Source: Geotoga petraea (GTDB taxonomy: Bacteria; Thermotogota; Thermotogae; Petrotogales; Petrotogaceae). From it: a stretch of DNA of 64,000 nt. The position numbers were made by a program, and so were the translations under genes. The notes below the pieces were generated by a model. The model did no database searches. It was not told the origin of the DNA and saw only the letters and a program-made list of their open reading frames with translations. The stretch is from NCBI RefSeq assembly GCF_900102615.1, contig NZ_FMYV01000001.1:186913-250912 (forward strand). Reading direction: 5' to 3'. How positions within the stretch are numbered: position 1 is the first letter of the stretch; each line of letters starts with the position of its first letter. Positions 37,957-43,820 of this stretch are shown here, piece after piece.

Positions 37957-39354
37957 CTAAAAACCTTTTATTATAAGTAAAGTTATATCATCGTGTTGAG
38001 GTGTTTCTTTTACAAATTGGTCCACAGAGTCTATTATACTTTTAACTATTACATTGGTATTTTTTTTACTTATCTCTTTTATTACATTTTCAAGTCTTTT
38101 TTCTCCATACTCCTCTTTATATTCATTTCTTGCCTCTGTTACACCATCTGTGAAATTTGCTATTAAAAATTCTTTTTCGTACTCGATTGCTTCTATTTCA
38201 TAACCAAAATCTTCTGAAACTCCTAATGGCAAACCAGTTGAATCAATATAATGCACTTTACCATCTTTTAAATATGGAGTTGTGTTATGGCCTGCGTTTA
38301 TTACTTGTACTTTTTTAGTTTTTGAATTTATCAATACAAAAATAGCGGTTACAAACCTATCATCTGGAATATTTTTGTTTAAATATTTGTTTAAATAATT
38401 TACCATTTCCATTAAGCCTTTATTTTCTTCTGCTTTGCTTCTCACTATAGCTCTAAGAGAGCTCATTATTAAAGCCGCTGGAACGCCTTTACCGGAAACG
38501 TCAGCAACTAATCCTAAAATTTCGTGATTACTTATCTTTATTATATCATAATAATCTCCGCCCACTTCGTAAGCAGATCTATAAAAAGCAGATGTAGAAA
38601 CATTGGCTATTTCTGGAATTTCATCTGGAAGTAAAGATGATTGGATTTCTCTTGCAAGTTTCATTTGTTCGTTTATCTTTTGTTGTTCAATTTTTTCATC
38701 TAAATAGTTAATTGTATCAAAGCCAAAAGCTATTTGTTCTGTAACTGATTCCATTATTTTTTTATCAGAGGCTAAATAAAAAGAGTTATCAGTTTTTCCG
38801 TACAAAAGAATAAAACCCCATGTTTTTATTTGTGACTTAATAGGCAAAAGTATAAATGATGTATCTTTAGAATTTATCTCATCAGTCTCTTTTAAAATAG
38901 TTTTTGGTTCTTCGTTTTTTTTAAATAAATTGATCAATGGGTTGATGTTTTCATAATCTAAATCAACCAAATCAAGAAACAAAGGCTTGAAGTCCAATGA
39001 TTTGTCAAAGTTCACAAATTCTCCGACTACAATATTTTTAAAAATTATTGAGCTTTTTAATCTTTCTACAATTGTTTCTATCGATAATCGAGGGTCTTTA
39101 TTGGCAAAAACAAGCTTAGATATCTCTAAAACGGTTGTAAGTTCTTCATAAATTCTTGATATTTCTTCGTATTGAGCTTCTAAGATCAAAGTATTTTCTT
39201 CCATTTGAATTTTGTAGTTGTTCAATTCTTTTAAATACTTATCAATTAAATATTCACTTCTCTTTTTTACTATTTTTTCATCAGAAACTTTATCTTTGTA
39301 TATATTAAGTGTTTCATTTAATTTATTATATATTTTATCATAGAAATTATCCAT
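37957..39354 (-). CDS. GAF-linked PP2C (RsbU/SpoIIE-type) serine phosphatase
   Basis: About 465 residues: a helical N-terminal region (about 1-75, coiled coil likely), a GAF-like sensor domain (about 75-220), a short signalling helix and a C-terminal PP2C SpoIIE domain with YEVGGDYYDI, LVADVSGKGVPAALIMS, FVTAIFVLI and QHDDITLLII, including the metal-binding aspartates. Such enzymes dephosphorylate STAS antagonists to release sigma factors or other targets. I take the ATG at 39354 behind GGAG; it overlaps the receiver gene's end by eight bases. Coupling to the CheY-like gene suggests the receiver controls the phosphatase. The STAS gene at the left of the window is one possible substrate. Confidence 0.92.
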   Translation of the reverse strand: MDNFYDKIYNKLNETLNIYKDKVSDEKIVKKRSEYLIDKYLKELNNYKIQMEENTLILEAQYEEISRIYEELTTVLEISKLVFANKDPRLSIETIVERLKSSIIFKNIVVGEFVNFDKSLDFKPLFLDLVDLDYENINPLINLFKKNEEPKTILKETDEINSKDTSFILLPIKSQIKTWGFILLYGKTDNSFYLASDKKIMESVTEQIAFGFDTINYLDEKIEQQKINEQMKLAREIQSSLLPDEIPEIANVSTSAFYRSAYEVGGDYYDIIKISNHEILGLVADVSGKGVPAALIMSSLRAIVRSKAEENKGLMEMVNYLNKYLNKNIPDDRFVTAIFVLINSKTKKVQVINAGHNTTPYLKDGKVHYIDSTGLPLGVSEDFGYEIEAIEYEKEFLIANFTDGVTEARNEYKEEYGEKRLENVIKEISKKNTNVIVKSIIDSVDQFVKETPQHDDITLLIIKGF

Positions 39355-39715
39355 CGTTATCTCCAAGAAGTTCTGACACGGTGTCTACTAAAAATTTTGG
39401 ACTAAAAGGTTTAGTTATAACTTTTTTGGCCCCAAGGTTGAGAGCCATTTCTTCATCTGATTCTCCACCTTTTGCAGTCAAAACAACTACTGGTATTTTA
39501 CAATTGATTTTTTTAAGTTCTTTTAAAACAGTAAAACCATCCATAACAGGCATCATGATATCCAAAAAAATCATATCAGGATTTTCAGACTCAATTTTAT
39601 CTAACCCTTCTTTCCCGTTAACAGCTTCCATTACTTCATAACCAGCTGATTTTAAATTAAAAGTTATTATTCTTCTTAAAACATTAGAATCATCGACAAC
39701 TAAAATTCTTTTCAT
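39347..39715 (-). CDS. CheY-like single-domain response regulator
   Basis: The 122-residue protein is a lone receiver domain with the acidic pocket Asp8/Asp9, phosphoacceptor Asp52 (FLDIMMPVMDG), Thr80 and Lys102 (TKPF), so it should be phosphorylatable. No output domain is attached. The gene overlaps the PP2C phosphatase gene, which suggests a two-protein signalling unit rather than a flagellar CheY; chemotactic CheY remains possible because cheR is a few genes downstream. The kinase is not in the window. Confidence 0.93.
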   Translation of the reverse strand: MKRILVVDDSNVLRRIITFNLKSAGYEVMEAVNGKEGLDKIESENPDMIFLDIMMPVMDGFTVLKELKKINCKIPVVVLTAKGGESDEEMALNLGAKKVITKPFSPKFLVDTVSELLGDNDG

Positions 39716-39720
39716 GAATA

Positions 39721-40296
39721 TTACCTCCAGTAAGTCTTATCACAAATTGGAAAACATAAAAATTCTTTATAATCTTGTATATTAAATATCTTTAAAATGT
39801 TATAAATCATATTGTAATCTTGATAATATTTTAACATAAAAACATTATTTTTATTTTTATGTATTCTTAGTTCTTCAAAAATAGCTTCCTTCTTGTATTC
39901 TGACTTCCCTTTTTGAATAACTTTTATATTTTCAAAATCATAGAAAAGATTTTCAGATAGATATACTTTAAAGTCAAAACCTTTAAGTGCTTTTGAAAGC
40001 CTGAACTTATCGTCTACTTCCTTATAAAAATTTAGATTTAAACCCCTTGGTGTATAAACATCAAAAGATGAAAAATCAAATGATTTTTTAGTCTCAACAG
40101 TTAGGAAAAAATTTCTATTTATATATCCGAATGGAATGGGATTTGAAAAAGAAAATAAAGGCTTGGGGTTGAATCCTTTAGAAAATTCAAAAGGGCATTT
40201 TGCTCGTCTCAATGATTCTTCAATTATTCTTATAGTATCCAGATGACCATTGTAAATCAATTTCCCTGATTTTTTAAAGCTTAAAAGATATTTCAT
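39721..40296 (-). CDS. DUF2344 (radical SAM-associated) protein
   Basis: The 191-residue protein matches DUF2344 from its N-terminus: YLLSFKKSGKLIYNGHLDT, RRAKCPFEFSKGFNPKP and the hydrophobic FSNPIPFGYINRNF stretch. In many bacteria the domain follows or is fused to a B12-binding radical SAM protein and may assist an unknown modification step. No radical SAM gene is present here, so the partner must be elsewhere. It is the first gene of this minus-strand cluster and lies five bases from the receiver gene. Confidence 0.75.
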   Translation of the reverse strand: MKYLLSFKKSGKLIYNGHLDTIRIIEESLRRAKCPFEFSKGFNPKPLFSFSNPIPFGYINRNFFLTVETKKSFDFSSFDVYTPRGLNLNFYKEVDDKFRLSKALKGFDFKVYLSENLFYDFENIKVIQKGKSEYKKEAIFEELRIHKNKNNVFMLKYYQDYNMIYNILKIFNIQDYKEFLCFPICDKTYWR

Positions 40297-40417: not shown

Positions 40418-40456
40418 TTTTTTGATTATGTTTACTTAGTTTCAGGAGGAAATCAG

Positions 40457-42550
40457 ATGAAAAGTTTTTTATTTGGATTTATAATAACAATTTCAATATT
40501 AATGATTGTATTTTTTTATTCTAAAGATTTTTATGAAGATACTTCTTCAATATTTTTGGTTAACTCAAATTATAATACATATCTTTTTGATGATGGAGAT
40601 ATGATACTCCCCACAAAATATAAGTATGAATATTTAGAAGATATACCAAACGATCTCTTGTATTTGTTATTATGGAGCGAAGATAGAGATTTTTATAAAC
40701 ACAACGGTATAAACCCAAAGACTATGATGAGGGCTATGTTGATCAACCTAAAAAATTTTAATATTTCTCAAGGAGGGTCAACCTTAACTCAACAATTGGC
40801 AAAAACACTATATCTAACTTATGAGAGAACGGCAAAGAGAAAAGTTCTTGATATAATGCTTTCATTTTTTATAGAGAGAAGCTATACGAAAGATGAGATT
40901 TTAGAAGCTTACGTAAATAGTGTTTATTTGGGGAACGATATTTCTGGGTTTGCAGCAGCATCCAGAAGATATTTTGAAAAAGATGTTGATGAATTAAATA
41001 TATATGAAAAAGCACTCTTGGTTGGCATTATAAATAGGCCCGTCTATGCAAACCCATATAAATACCCAGAAGAAGCAAGAAAAGAAGCCAAGATATTACT
41101 TGAATCATTAGATGAGAATAATCCTATATTTAAGCCAGAGTCAAATTTTGAATCACAGGTTAATGCCATAGATATATATCCTCTTAACTACAATGAAGAA
41201 TATTTAGATTTAATATATTCCATAAAAGAAAAAGAAGAAGAATTGAATTTAAAAGGCGGAGGTTATACTATAAAAACCACTTTCAATAGAGATCTTTTTA
41301 ATTCTATTACTCCTAATTCAAGTCAAACAGCTATAGTAATTAACAATAAATCTGGAGAGATAAAAAGCTTTTGGGGAGGAGAATATTCAGTATACCAGTC
41401 GAAAAAACAAGTTGGGTCTAGTATAAAACCTTTTTATTATGTTCTTGCGTTAGATAAAGGCTTTAACTTAAATACTATACTACCTGATAAAGAGATGTCT
41501 TTTGGTGGTTGGAAACCTGAAAACTTTGATAAGCAGTTCCGTGGAGAAGTTGAACTAAGTCAAGCTTTAATACATTCTATAAATATTCCTTCTATATATT
41601 TAGCTTCTCATATAGAAAATTCTCCAACAAAATCAGTTGAAAGAATCAAAAACTTTTTGAAAGAGGATCTGGAAATCGAGGCAAATTATCCAGATGATTT
41701 AACAATAGCTTTAGGTACTTTAGAAACTAACCCCTTCAATATGGTTAGAGCAATAAACATTTTTCCGAATTATGGTATAATTCCTGAAATATATGCTATT
41801 GAAGAGATATATGATAGAAAAGGCAATTTAATATATAAAAATTATCCTTCTATTCAAAAAAGGATAGATGAAATATCTGTTGAAACATACTCGGCAATGA
41901 ATCAACTTTTGAGAAGGGTGGTAACAGAAGGATCCGCACAACGAGCCAATGCTGAGGGAATTGACTTGCACGGTAAAACGGGTTCTCCAGAATTATCTAC
42001 ATGGTTTGTTGGTTATACGGGAAATAAAAGTATTTCTGTAAGAATTGATGGGAAAGATTTATTATCTTCAAGTTCTTCCGTTCCATTTGCAAAGCAAATA
42101 GCAGAGAATTTTATATATACTGGATACAATTCAGAAGTTCCAACTTACATTAATACGTCAAACTTTGAACAAAAAGCTGATTTCTTCAACGAACCTGTTA
42201 TCTTTTTAAGTAAAGGATACGATTTTGAAGAATATCTCGAAAAGAAAAAATTTCAAGAAGATCCAGAAGTTTTAAAAGAGAAAATAGAAAATATTATTGA
42301 TGAATTAGAATATATTTATCCTGATATTTCAAAAAAATTAAAGGATTGGATGAATTTAAATTTGGTAGATTTTATAAAATCACCGTATTCTTTTATACAA
42401 AACGGTTATGATCTTGAAACTTATTTAGAAAATATTGAGATCAATCCAGAAATAGTTCACAAATTAAAACAACTCTCAAATGAATTAAGCTATGTATATC
42501 CATATGAATCTCAACTAATAAATAAATTTTTAAAAGAGAAGGGATATTGA
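40457..42550 (+). CDS. Class A penicillin-binding protein (PBP1A-like) with repeat tail
   Basis: A bifunctional peptidoglycan synthase of 697 residues anchored by one N-terminal helix (4-22). The GT51 transglycosylase domain has catalytic Glu75 (WSEDRDFYKHNGINP) and QGGSTLTQQLAKTL; the transpeptidase has the nucleophile Ser321 in SSIK, the SIN motif at 374-376 and KTG at 507-509. Beyond about residue 575 the protein carries a tail with two related units of about 55 residues, each with a GYDxExYLE motif and an ELxYxYP motif, absent from ordinary PBP1A. CAGGAGG precedes the ATG. The stop overlaps the start of a CRP-like gene (TGATG). Confidence 0.93.
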   Translation: MKSFLFGFIITISILMIVFFYSKDFYEDTSSIFLVNSNYNTYLFDDGDMILPTKYKYEYLEDIPNDLLYLLLWSEDRDFYKHNGINPKTMMRAMLINLKNFNISQGGSTLTQQLAKTLYLTYERTAKRKVLDIMLSFFIERSYTKDEILEAYVNSVYLGNDISGFAAASRRYFEKDVDELNIYEKALLVGIINRPVYANPYKYPEEARKEAKILLESLDENNPIFKPESNFESQVNAIDIYPLNYNEEYLDLIYSIKEKEEELNLKGGGYTIKTTFNRDLFNSITPNSSQTAIVINNKSGEIKSFWGGEYSVYQSKKQVGSSIKPFYYVLALDKGFNLNTILPDKEMSFGGWKPENFDKQFRGEVELSQALIHSINIPSIYLASHIENSPTKSVERIKNFLKEDLEIEANYPDDLTIALGTLETNPFNMVRAINIFPNYGIIPEIYAIEEIYDRKGNLIYKNYPSIQKRIDEISVETYSAMNQLLRRVVTEGSAQRANAEGIDLHGKTGSPELSTWFVGYTGNKSISVRIDGKDLLSSSSSVPFAKQIAENFIYTGYNSEVPTYINTSNFEQKADFFNEPVIFLSKGYDFEEYLEKKKFQEDPEVLKEKIENIIDELEYIYPDISKKLKDWMNLNLVDFIKSPYSFIQNGYDLETYLENIEINPEIVHKLKQLSNELSYVYPYESQLINKFLKEKGY

Positions 42551-43344
42551 TGAAAGAAGTTAAAAAAAATGAAATTCTTATAAAAAAAGATGAGATTCCT
42601 AAAAAGTTTTATTATATAGTAGATGGAGAAGTTGAAAACAACAAGAAAATATATAGAAAGGGTAATTTTATCGCTCTAATTCATTGCTTAATTCAAACAA
42701 AAGTTTCAGATAATTATAAAATCCGAAAAAACGCCAAATTGATGGAATTTTCAGACATAAATGATATTGATAAGGATTATATTGATGATTTTCTTAAATA
42801 TGTTTCTAAGTATACAAACAACATAATCTTTAAAAATTCAATAGGTGAAAAAATTTCAATTAACGAGTTGGTAAAAAATAAGGAATCCTTCATAAAAGGT
42901 GATACTGGAGATTTAGATTTTTCAAATGATGAAGAGTTGAACGAACTTTTAAATACTTTTGATTATTTCGTTAACGATAAACAACTGCAAATTACTTTAC
43001 CTGAATCATTTGAAGAGTATAAAAAAGAATTAAAAGATGCCATTATAGAATTAAACATATCAAAATTTATAAATTATTCTAAAATGGGGCTTTATAACTA
43101 CGAAGAAAATTGGGATGACTTTTTAGATGAATTGATCGATATAGCAATAACGATAAATGATAGAGCTCTTGTTTTATATTTGCTATATATTGCAGGGATG
43201 AAAATGAGAGATTATAAAAAAATAAATGATTTGATAAAAAAAAATTGGGAATTTTTAAGATTTAACAACAACAACATTTGGATAGATTATGCAATGAGAT
43301 TTGTAAATAATCAACTCCTTTTTGAAGAGGTGTTGAAAAAGTGA
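42550..43344 (+). CDS. CRP-like sensor protein with helical C-terminal domain
   Basis: Residues about 1-75 resemble a cyclic-nucleotide-binding beta-roll: KKFYYIVDGEVENN followed by a KGNF turn, at the positions of the YxIxxGxV and GxF elements of CRP. The phosphate-binding cassette is not recognisable, so ligand binding is doubtful. The remaining 190 residues are acidic and helical, with no clear helix-turn-helix. The start ATG overlaps the PBP stop and is preceded by AGAAGGG, so the two are made together. A role in sensing or gating cell-wall synthesis is inferred from this coupling. It could instead be a scaffold derived from a CRP-family regulator. Confidence 0.7.
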   Translation: MKEVKKNEILIKKDEIPKKFYYIVDGEVENNKKIYRKGNFIALIHCLIQTKVSDNYKIRKNAKLMEFSDINDIDKDYIDDFLKYVSKYTNNIIFKNSIGEKISINELVKNKESFIKGDTGDLDFSNDEELNELLNTFDYFVNDKQLQITLPESFEEYKKELKDAIIELNISKFINYSKMGLYNYEENWDDFLDELIDIAITINDRALVLYLLYIAGMKMRDYKKINDLIKKNWEFLRFNNNNIWIDYAMRFVNNQLLFEEVLKK

Positions 43345-43820
43345 CATATCCATACTTAAAAAATTTTGCAACTAAAAGCAACAGCATTTACTATATTAAA
43401 AGTGGTATAGTAGCAGCCTTATTATATTCTAAGAAAAAACCTTTTTTATGCCATATATATACAACTGGGGACTTTGTTGGGATTGACAAATATCAAGATG
43501 ATGTAGGTATTATAGATTACTACATGCTAACTGAATGTGATTATGAGATAGTTTCTGATGATCAATTAAATAGCGAAAAATACAAAGAATCATTCCGAGA
43601 ATTTATGAAAACTTTTTTACAAGAAATTACCGCATATAGGACAGAGGATTACGATAAAATTTTGGAATATAATTTAGAAAAGATATCAAGATTTTCTAAC
43701 GAAATTGAAGGGATACCTTTGTCTTTTGTAAAAGAAATGGGCATTAAAAATGATTTAGATAAATTATTAGAAAAAGATAAAGTAGTTCTTGAAAATCAGG
43801 TATATAAAATAATAAAATAA
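43341..43820 (+). CDS. Second CRP-like sensor protein
   Basis: This 159-residue protein begins with GTG behind GAGGTG and overlaps the preceding gene by four bases. Its first 75 residues look like a compact cNMP-type beta-roll (SIYYIKSGIVAALLYSKK, TGDFVGI), more canonical than in its neighbour. The C-terminal region (RFSNEIEGIPLSFVKEMG, then DKLLEKDKVVLENQVYKI) may be a degenerate winged helix of the CRP/FNR type, but a DNA-recognition helix cannot be asserted. Together with the preceding gene it may form a heteromeric sensor. The two N-termini look paralogous. Confidence 0.7.
   Translation: MTYPYLKNFATKSNSIYYIKSGIVAALLYSKKKPFLCHIYTTGDFVGIDKYQDDVGIIDYYMLTECDYEIVSDDQLNSEKYKESFREFMKTFLQEITAYRTEDYDKILEYNLEKISRFSNEIEGIPLSFVKEMGIKNDLDKLLEKDKVVLENQVYKIIK

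Follow-up and report, generated by a model that had tools for sequence, protein, structure and literature searches.

Known partners of class A penicillin-binding proteins (PBPs) include LpoA/LpoB, MacP and CpoB, which are lipoproteins, membrane or periplasmic proteins. Canonical cyclic nucleotide-binding (cNMP) domains carry a phosphate cassette that reads FGE...PRxAT, the dimer interface of CRP is formed by its C-helices, and regulators of the FNR type are without the cyclic-nucleotide cassette. No paper joining a class A PBP, cyclic nucleotide binding and an operon was found in literature coverage that lay mostly outside subscription journals, a result that is thus weak evidence of novelty; nothing specific was found there on cNMP regulators and PBPs of Thermotogota. 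To our knowledge, the protein pair described here has no name.

The locus was analysed within a window of 64,000 nucleotides of Geotoga petraea DNA (the whole stretch under study). It consists of a PBP gene followed by two small genes, B and C, whose products we suggest, with moderate confidence, form a CRP-like heterodimer that acts by protein contacts or some other ligand. Its features are:

40444..40449, forward strand: AGGAGG, ribosome-binding site of the PBP gene (sequence)
40457..42550, forward strand: PBP gene, 697 aa (ORF; Pfam, hydropathy, motifs)
42134..42547, forward strand: C-terminal extension of the PBP, with two GYD(F/L)E-YLE repeats (sequence, local alignment)
42536..42543, forward strand: GAGAAGGG, ribosome-binding-site-like, for gene B, within the end of the PBP gene (sequence)
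42550..43344, forward strand: gene B, 264 aa from an ATG start (ORF)
43324..43332, forward strand: GAAGAGGTG, ribosome-binding-site-like, for gene C, within gene B (sequence)
43341..43820, forward strand: gene C, 159 aa, GTG start (ORF)

The gene coordinates given in the original prediction were exact, and all three reading frames are real. The predicted overlaps were also confirmed, at 1 base between the PBP gene and gene B with the ATG start (an alternative TTG at 42547 would make it 4) and at 4 bases between B and C, and a Shine-Dalgarno-like stretch precedes all three starts. Across the PBP-B-C region, Rfam gave no credible match, a terminator scan found none, and promoter matches were no more numerous than in shuffled sequences. 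Gene C is followed 3' by rplU-prp-rpmA, and genes for a DUF2344 protein, a response regulator and a SpoIIE-type phosphatase lie divergently upstream of the PBP gene. For comparison, 103 Thermotogota genomes were searched for B and C, with weak generic cNMP matches excluded from the counts. Families and genera carry our own labels; genus g4 is Marinitoga (locus match to M. lauensis), and from this and general knowledge we take family f1 to be Petrotogaceae and its genera g2, g3 and g6 to be Petrotoga-like.

The PBP was matched by Transgly (PF00912, 1.5e-53) and Transpeptidase (1.8e-20), has the GT51 motif EDxxFxxHxG as EDRDFYKHNG at residue 75, and carries the transpeptidase motifs in order, as SSIK at 321 (SxxK), SIN at 374 (SxN) and KTG at 507 (K[ST]G). 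Judged by these domains and motifs, it is an ordinary class A enzyme with all catalytic motifs, bifunctional as had been predicted, and it is the sole GT51 protein of this genome (single PF00912 match). Its N-terminus reads MKS and is followed by a transmembrane helix at about residues 4-22 (hydropathy; the maximum window starts at 4), so that about 3 residues can face the cytoplasm; the C-terminal extension would be extracytoplasmic, by analogy with the topology of the class. In family f2, GT51 was matched in 0/17 genomes (G018-G034), though these belong to the same order as the window, and judging from gene content they seem to make their peptidoglycan with no class A PBP. On one draft contig (L047, genome G040) neither the PBP gene nor kbl is intact, which suggests sequencing errors and not real pseudogenes.

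Both small proteins had been predicted to contain cNMP-like beta-rolls, and AlphaFold2 models gave them the following architectures:

Gene B product: beta-roll 1-67, helix 75-98, alpha-solenoid about 104-263
Gene C product: beta-roll 5-72, C-helix 82-100, winged helix 104-157

Profile and structure comparisons with the cNMP and CRP/FNR families bore the prediction out for B and C alike. PF00027 was matched by 31/31 relatives of B, the best at 5e-14, and by 18/30 of C, the best at 1e-13; the window's own B scored 1e-3, under the curated cut-off, and its own C had no PF00027 match. Profile searches of the PDB reached cNMP domains of solved structures (best 3.2e-13 for B, 3.8e-12 for C), and hhalign relates the beta-roll of B to that of C (97.1%, 7e-11). 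The model of B (pLDDT 79.9, with a low-confidence stretch at residues 81-150, block means 44-68) was matched by Foldseek to cNMP domains at E about 1e-3, and has an alpha-solenoid in place of a C-terminal winged helix; this solenoid is modelled, TPR/YfiO hints having stayed below cut-off and come from single B relatives or fused proteins only. The model of C (pLDDT 90.5), whose winged helix is built from helix 104-118, helices 127-133 and 136-144 and a beta-hairpin, found Aliivibrio fischeri FNR as its best Foldseek match (8qto, E 8.9e-8, about 180 alignment columns) and also matched CRP; as modelled, C has a CRP/FNR fold that is complete despite its small size. The original prediction of no obvious full DNA-binding domain in either protein therefore stands for B, which has the solenoid, and falls for C, which has a minimal CRP/FNR winged helix. 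No hydrophobic segments were found in B or C, and by hydropathy both are probably cytosolic.

The phosphate cassette was read from an alignment with internal controls. Neither its Glu nor its Arg is present in any B (0/31) or C (0/30) protein, so that they are missing in all 61. Among the controls, 11/11 second domains of fused double-cNMP proteins (described below) keep the Glu and 8/11 the Arg, and both residues are carried by two channel-linked CRP-like proteins. Given this loss, cyclic-nucleotide control of B and C is unlikely, and the predicted cyclic-nucleotide sensing was not borne out. One gene of this genome (G000 C7, L151:1468-3456, minus strand) codes for a 662-aa CHASE2-like membrane protein that includes a class III nucleotide cyclase domain, and it adjoins the gene for an HD-GYP-like protein. 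The organism may therefore make a cyclic nucleotide, and a missing second messenger need not explain the loss of the ligand site. In two f1 genomes, a canonical cNMP protein of 171 aa with an intact cassette is encoded 3' of the gene for a TrkA-type potassium channel (minus strand of L121 and L125, at about 3.4-4.5 kb). A weak cNMP-like match in the genome (L150) was cupin-like by eye and was set aside.

The predicted winged helix of C raises the main rival explanation, that C acts as a transcription factor for its own operon and other envelope genes, either ligand-independent or differently-liganded, and with B as its co-regulator. This would fit the complete CRP/FNR-type winged helix in the model, the FNR structure as best match, the retention of the C-terminal domain of C in Petrotogaceae and two other families, and the precedent of FNR-type regulators, which do without the cassette as well. 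The charge of that domain points the other way: its net value is -1 here and lies between -9 and +5 in relatives, most of them below zero, whereas the two ordinary CRP/FNR proteins that this genome encodes have +5 and +6. In one family, moreover, the winged helix is gone, the secA-linked C proteins being 105-107 aa long and ending after the C-helix. C showed no canonical recognition-helix motif, and in seven Marinitoga genomes the DNA upstream of the PBP gene, read by eye, had promoter-like sequence and, apart from it, no obvious palindrome that was conserved. Since the winged helix is weakly charged or acidic in most relatives and missing in one family, DNA binding by C is doubtful and would not be the conserved core of the module; residual DNA binding is possible, given that the charge of some winged helices is slightly positive, reaching +5. 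The transcription-factor explanation is accordingly one we regard as conceivable and rather doubtful. In genus g6 (L035-L039, L043), proteins of 812-835 aa weakly match the C-terminal 60-90 residues of C (E about 1e-3).

Gene B was found in 38/103 genomes (12 in f1, 6 in f10, 16 in f9, 3 in f11 and 1 in f6), and gene C in 37, directly behind B, the lone exception being the f6 genome; B-C gaps ranged from -14 to +2 bases in the genomes measured. This fixed order and tight spacing, in all families but for one genome, argues for a stoichiometric complex, and because B and C each retain a C-helix and have related beta-rolls, a CRP-like heterodimer is favoured. We infer that B and C together make up a single Thermotogota module, which would have arisen from the CRP/FNR-type cNMP fold. 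The two are most likely paired through their C-helices, and B would supply a protein-binding alpha-solenoid and C a reduced winged helix. With the cassette lost and the positive charge of the winged helix mostly lost, the module is probably a cytosolic adaptor or regulator working via protein contacts or another ligand, and not a cAMP-switched transcription factor.

The PBP gene lies directly upstream of the pair in 18 genomes, 12/21 Petrotogaceae (f1) and 6/14 f10, and so in every f1 (12/12) and f10 (6/6) genome that carries the pair; in genome G098, PBP-B-C was joined from two contigs, L056 and L119. Where measured, the distance from PBP to B was -14 to +33 bases in f1 genomes and -13 to -4 bases in f10 genomes. 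This arrangement is far beyond chance, and the survey showed the predicted co-translation with a class A PBP to be conserved. Neither outcome named beforehand as fatal to the original prediction, a lack of structural likeness to cNMP domains or relatives whose genes never adjoin a PBP gene, was seen. The pair is not dedicated to the PBP. In f9 it lies between secA and a glyoxalase/methylmalonyl-CoA-epimerase-like gene (10/16 loci read: L058, L107-L115; names by eye), in f11 it precedes yfcE-tig-like genes (names by eye), and in the f1 genera g2, g3 and g6 the PBP gene runs into rplU, with no B or C anywhere in those genomes. The flanks of PBP-B-C in f10 are otherwise unlike those in f1, and the PBP genes of other families have various other small genes behind them. 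In the trees of B and of C each family formed a clade of its own, f1 and f10 were not adjacent to each other, and recent gene transfer was therefore rejected as the source of the shared PBP linkage; from the sequences, the linkage would either be ancestral and lost elsewhere, or have arisen twice.

The block of SpoIIE-type phosphatase, response regulator and DUF2344 genes (window 37957-40296, reverse strand) was present in the f1 genomes with B-C wherever the upstream flank was read, and yebC-like genes stood in its place in the genera without B-C. The exchange of the block and the absence of B-C were possibly one rearrangement.

A second explanation is that the pair is unrelated to cell-wall synthesis and was merely parked behind the PBP gene, where overlap and vertical descent have kept it. 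The secA and yfcE-tig neighbours of the pair in other families, its clean absence between PBP and rplU in the Petrotoga-like genera and the varied small genes that trail the PBP elsewhere are what this would lead one to see, and with one clade per family in the trees the adjacency could be inherited. Drift alone, however, would tend to break an adjacency that in fact recurs in two families with differing other neighbours, and we consider the explanation unlikely.

Under the favoured CRP-like heterodimer, the PBP linkage would give co-expression with cell-wall synthesis, and the pair would not be intrinsic to the PBP. A bolder proposal, that B and C together form a CRP-like switch without a ligand that controls how much of the sole class A PBP of Petrotogaceae is made or how active it is, is a long shot; if true, it would be a cNMP-fold regulator devoted to peptidoglycan synthesis. 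A cyclic-nucleotide sensor pair regulating the PBP directly, as in the original prediction, is very improbable, for although the PBP linkage is conserved and the class III cyclase means that a cyclic nucleotide may exist, the ligand-contact residues are missing in 61/61 proteins, the cytoplasmic part of the PBP (about 3 residues) makes a direct PBP sensor unlikely, and the occurrence of B-C without PBP linkage, independent of the PBP in other families, disfavours a direct PBP regulator. The wider suggestion of a sensor or regulator of peptidoglycan synthesis was likewise not supported, given that short cytoplasmic part, the location of the pair by secA or yfcE-tig elsewhere and its absence from Petrotoga-like genera that keep the PBP; a role in coordinating the cell sheath (toga), also raised in the original prediction, is speculative. 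The analysis defines a protein pair carried by roughly one in three of the Thermotogota genomes searched. In this pair the CRP fold seems to have been turned into an obligate two-protein module without a ligand site and partly without a DNA-binding domain, and the pair raises testable questions in a phylum whose cell-wall regulation has been little studied.

The pair can be compared with a separate, phylum-wide fused family of Thermotogota proteins of 360-410 aa, arranged as cNMP domain, helical linker (with TPR hints) and cNMP domain, some members having a winged helix, and often encoded beside tdh-kbl or ackA. Its loci are:

L059:3622-4845
L123:3565-4770
L107:11552-12760, minus strand
L109:11270-12490, minus strand
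L122:3285-4481, minus strand
L126:3227-4435, minus strand
L140:2892-4085, minus strand
L124:2846-3931, minus strand
L142:3265-4350, minus strand
L145:3091-4197, minus strand
L141:3672-4817, minus strand

The layout of B plus C is here found in one chain, which speaks for the proposed two-subunit module. The second domain of the fused proteins retains the cassette residues (in the proportions given above), whereas B and C lack both. When B or C was compared with the fused families by hhalign, the alignment covered the first cNMP domain only, so that common descent of the two layouts is not demonstrated, and a direct origin of B and C by splitting of a fused protein, despite the shared layout, is on this comparison no more than a possibility.

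Among described systems, the CRP/FNR regulators (FNR, CRP, GlxR) are like C in having a beta-roll, a long C-helix and a winged helix that align over the whole length, and differ in size (about 200-230 aa, against 159 aa for C); C, for its part, is without the phosphate cassette, has a winged helix that is weakly charged or acidic and sometimes missing, and has gene B as an obligatory partner. The beta-rolls of B and C match those of the cNMP proteins PKA-R, PKG, HCN and Bd1971 by profile and fold, and differ in being without the cassette Glu and Arg and, in B, in being joined to an alpha-solenoid. With LpoA/LpoB, MacP and CpoB, the pair shares association with a bifunctional PBP, in its case through gene linkage, whereas B and C are, by hydropathy, predicted to be cytosolic.
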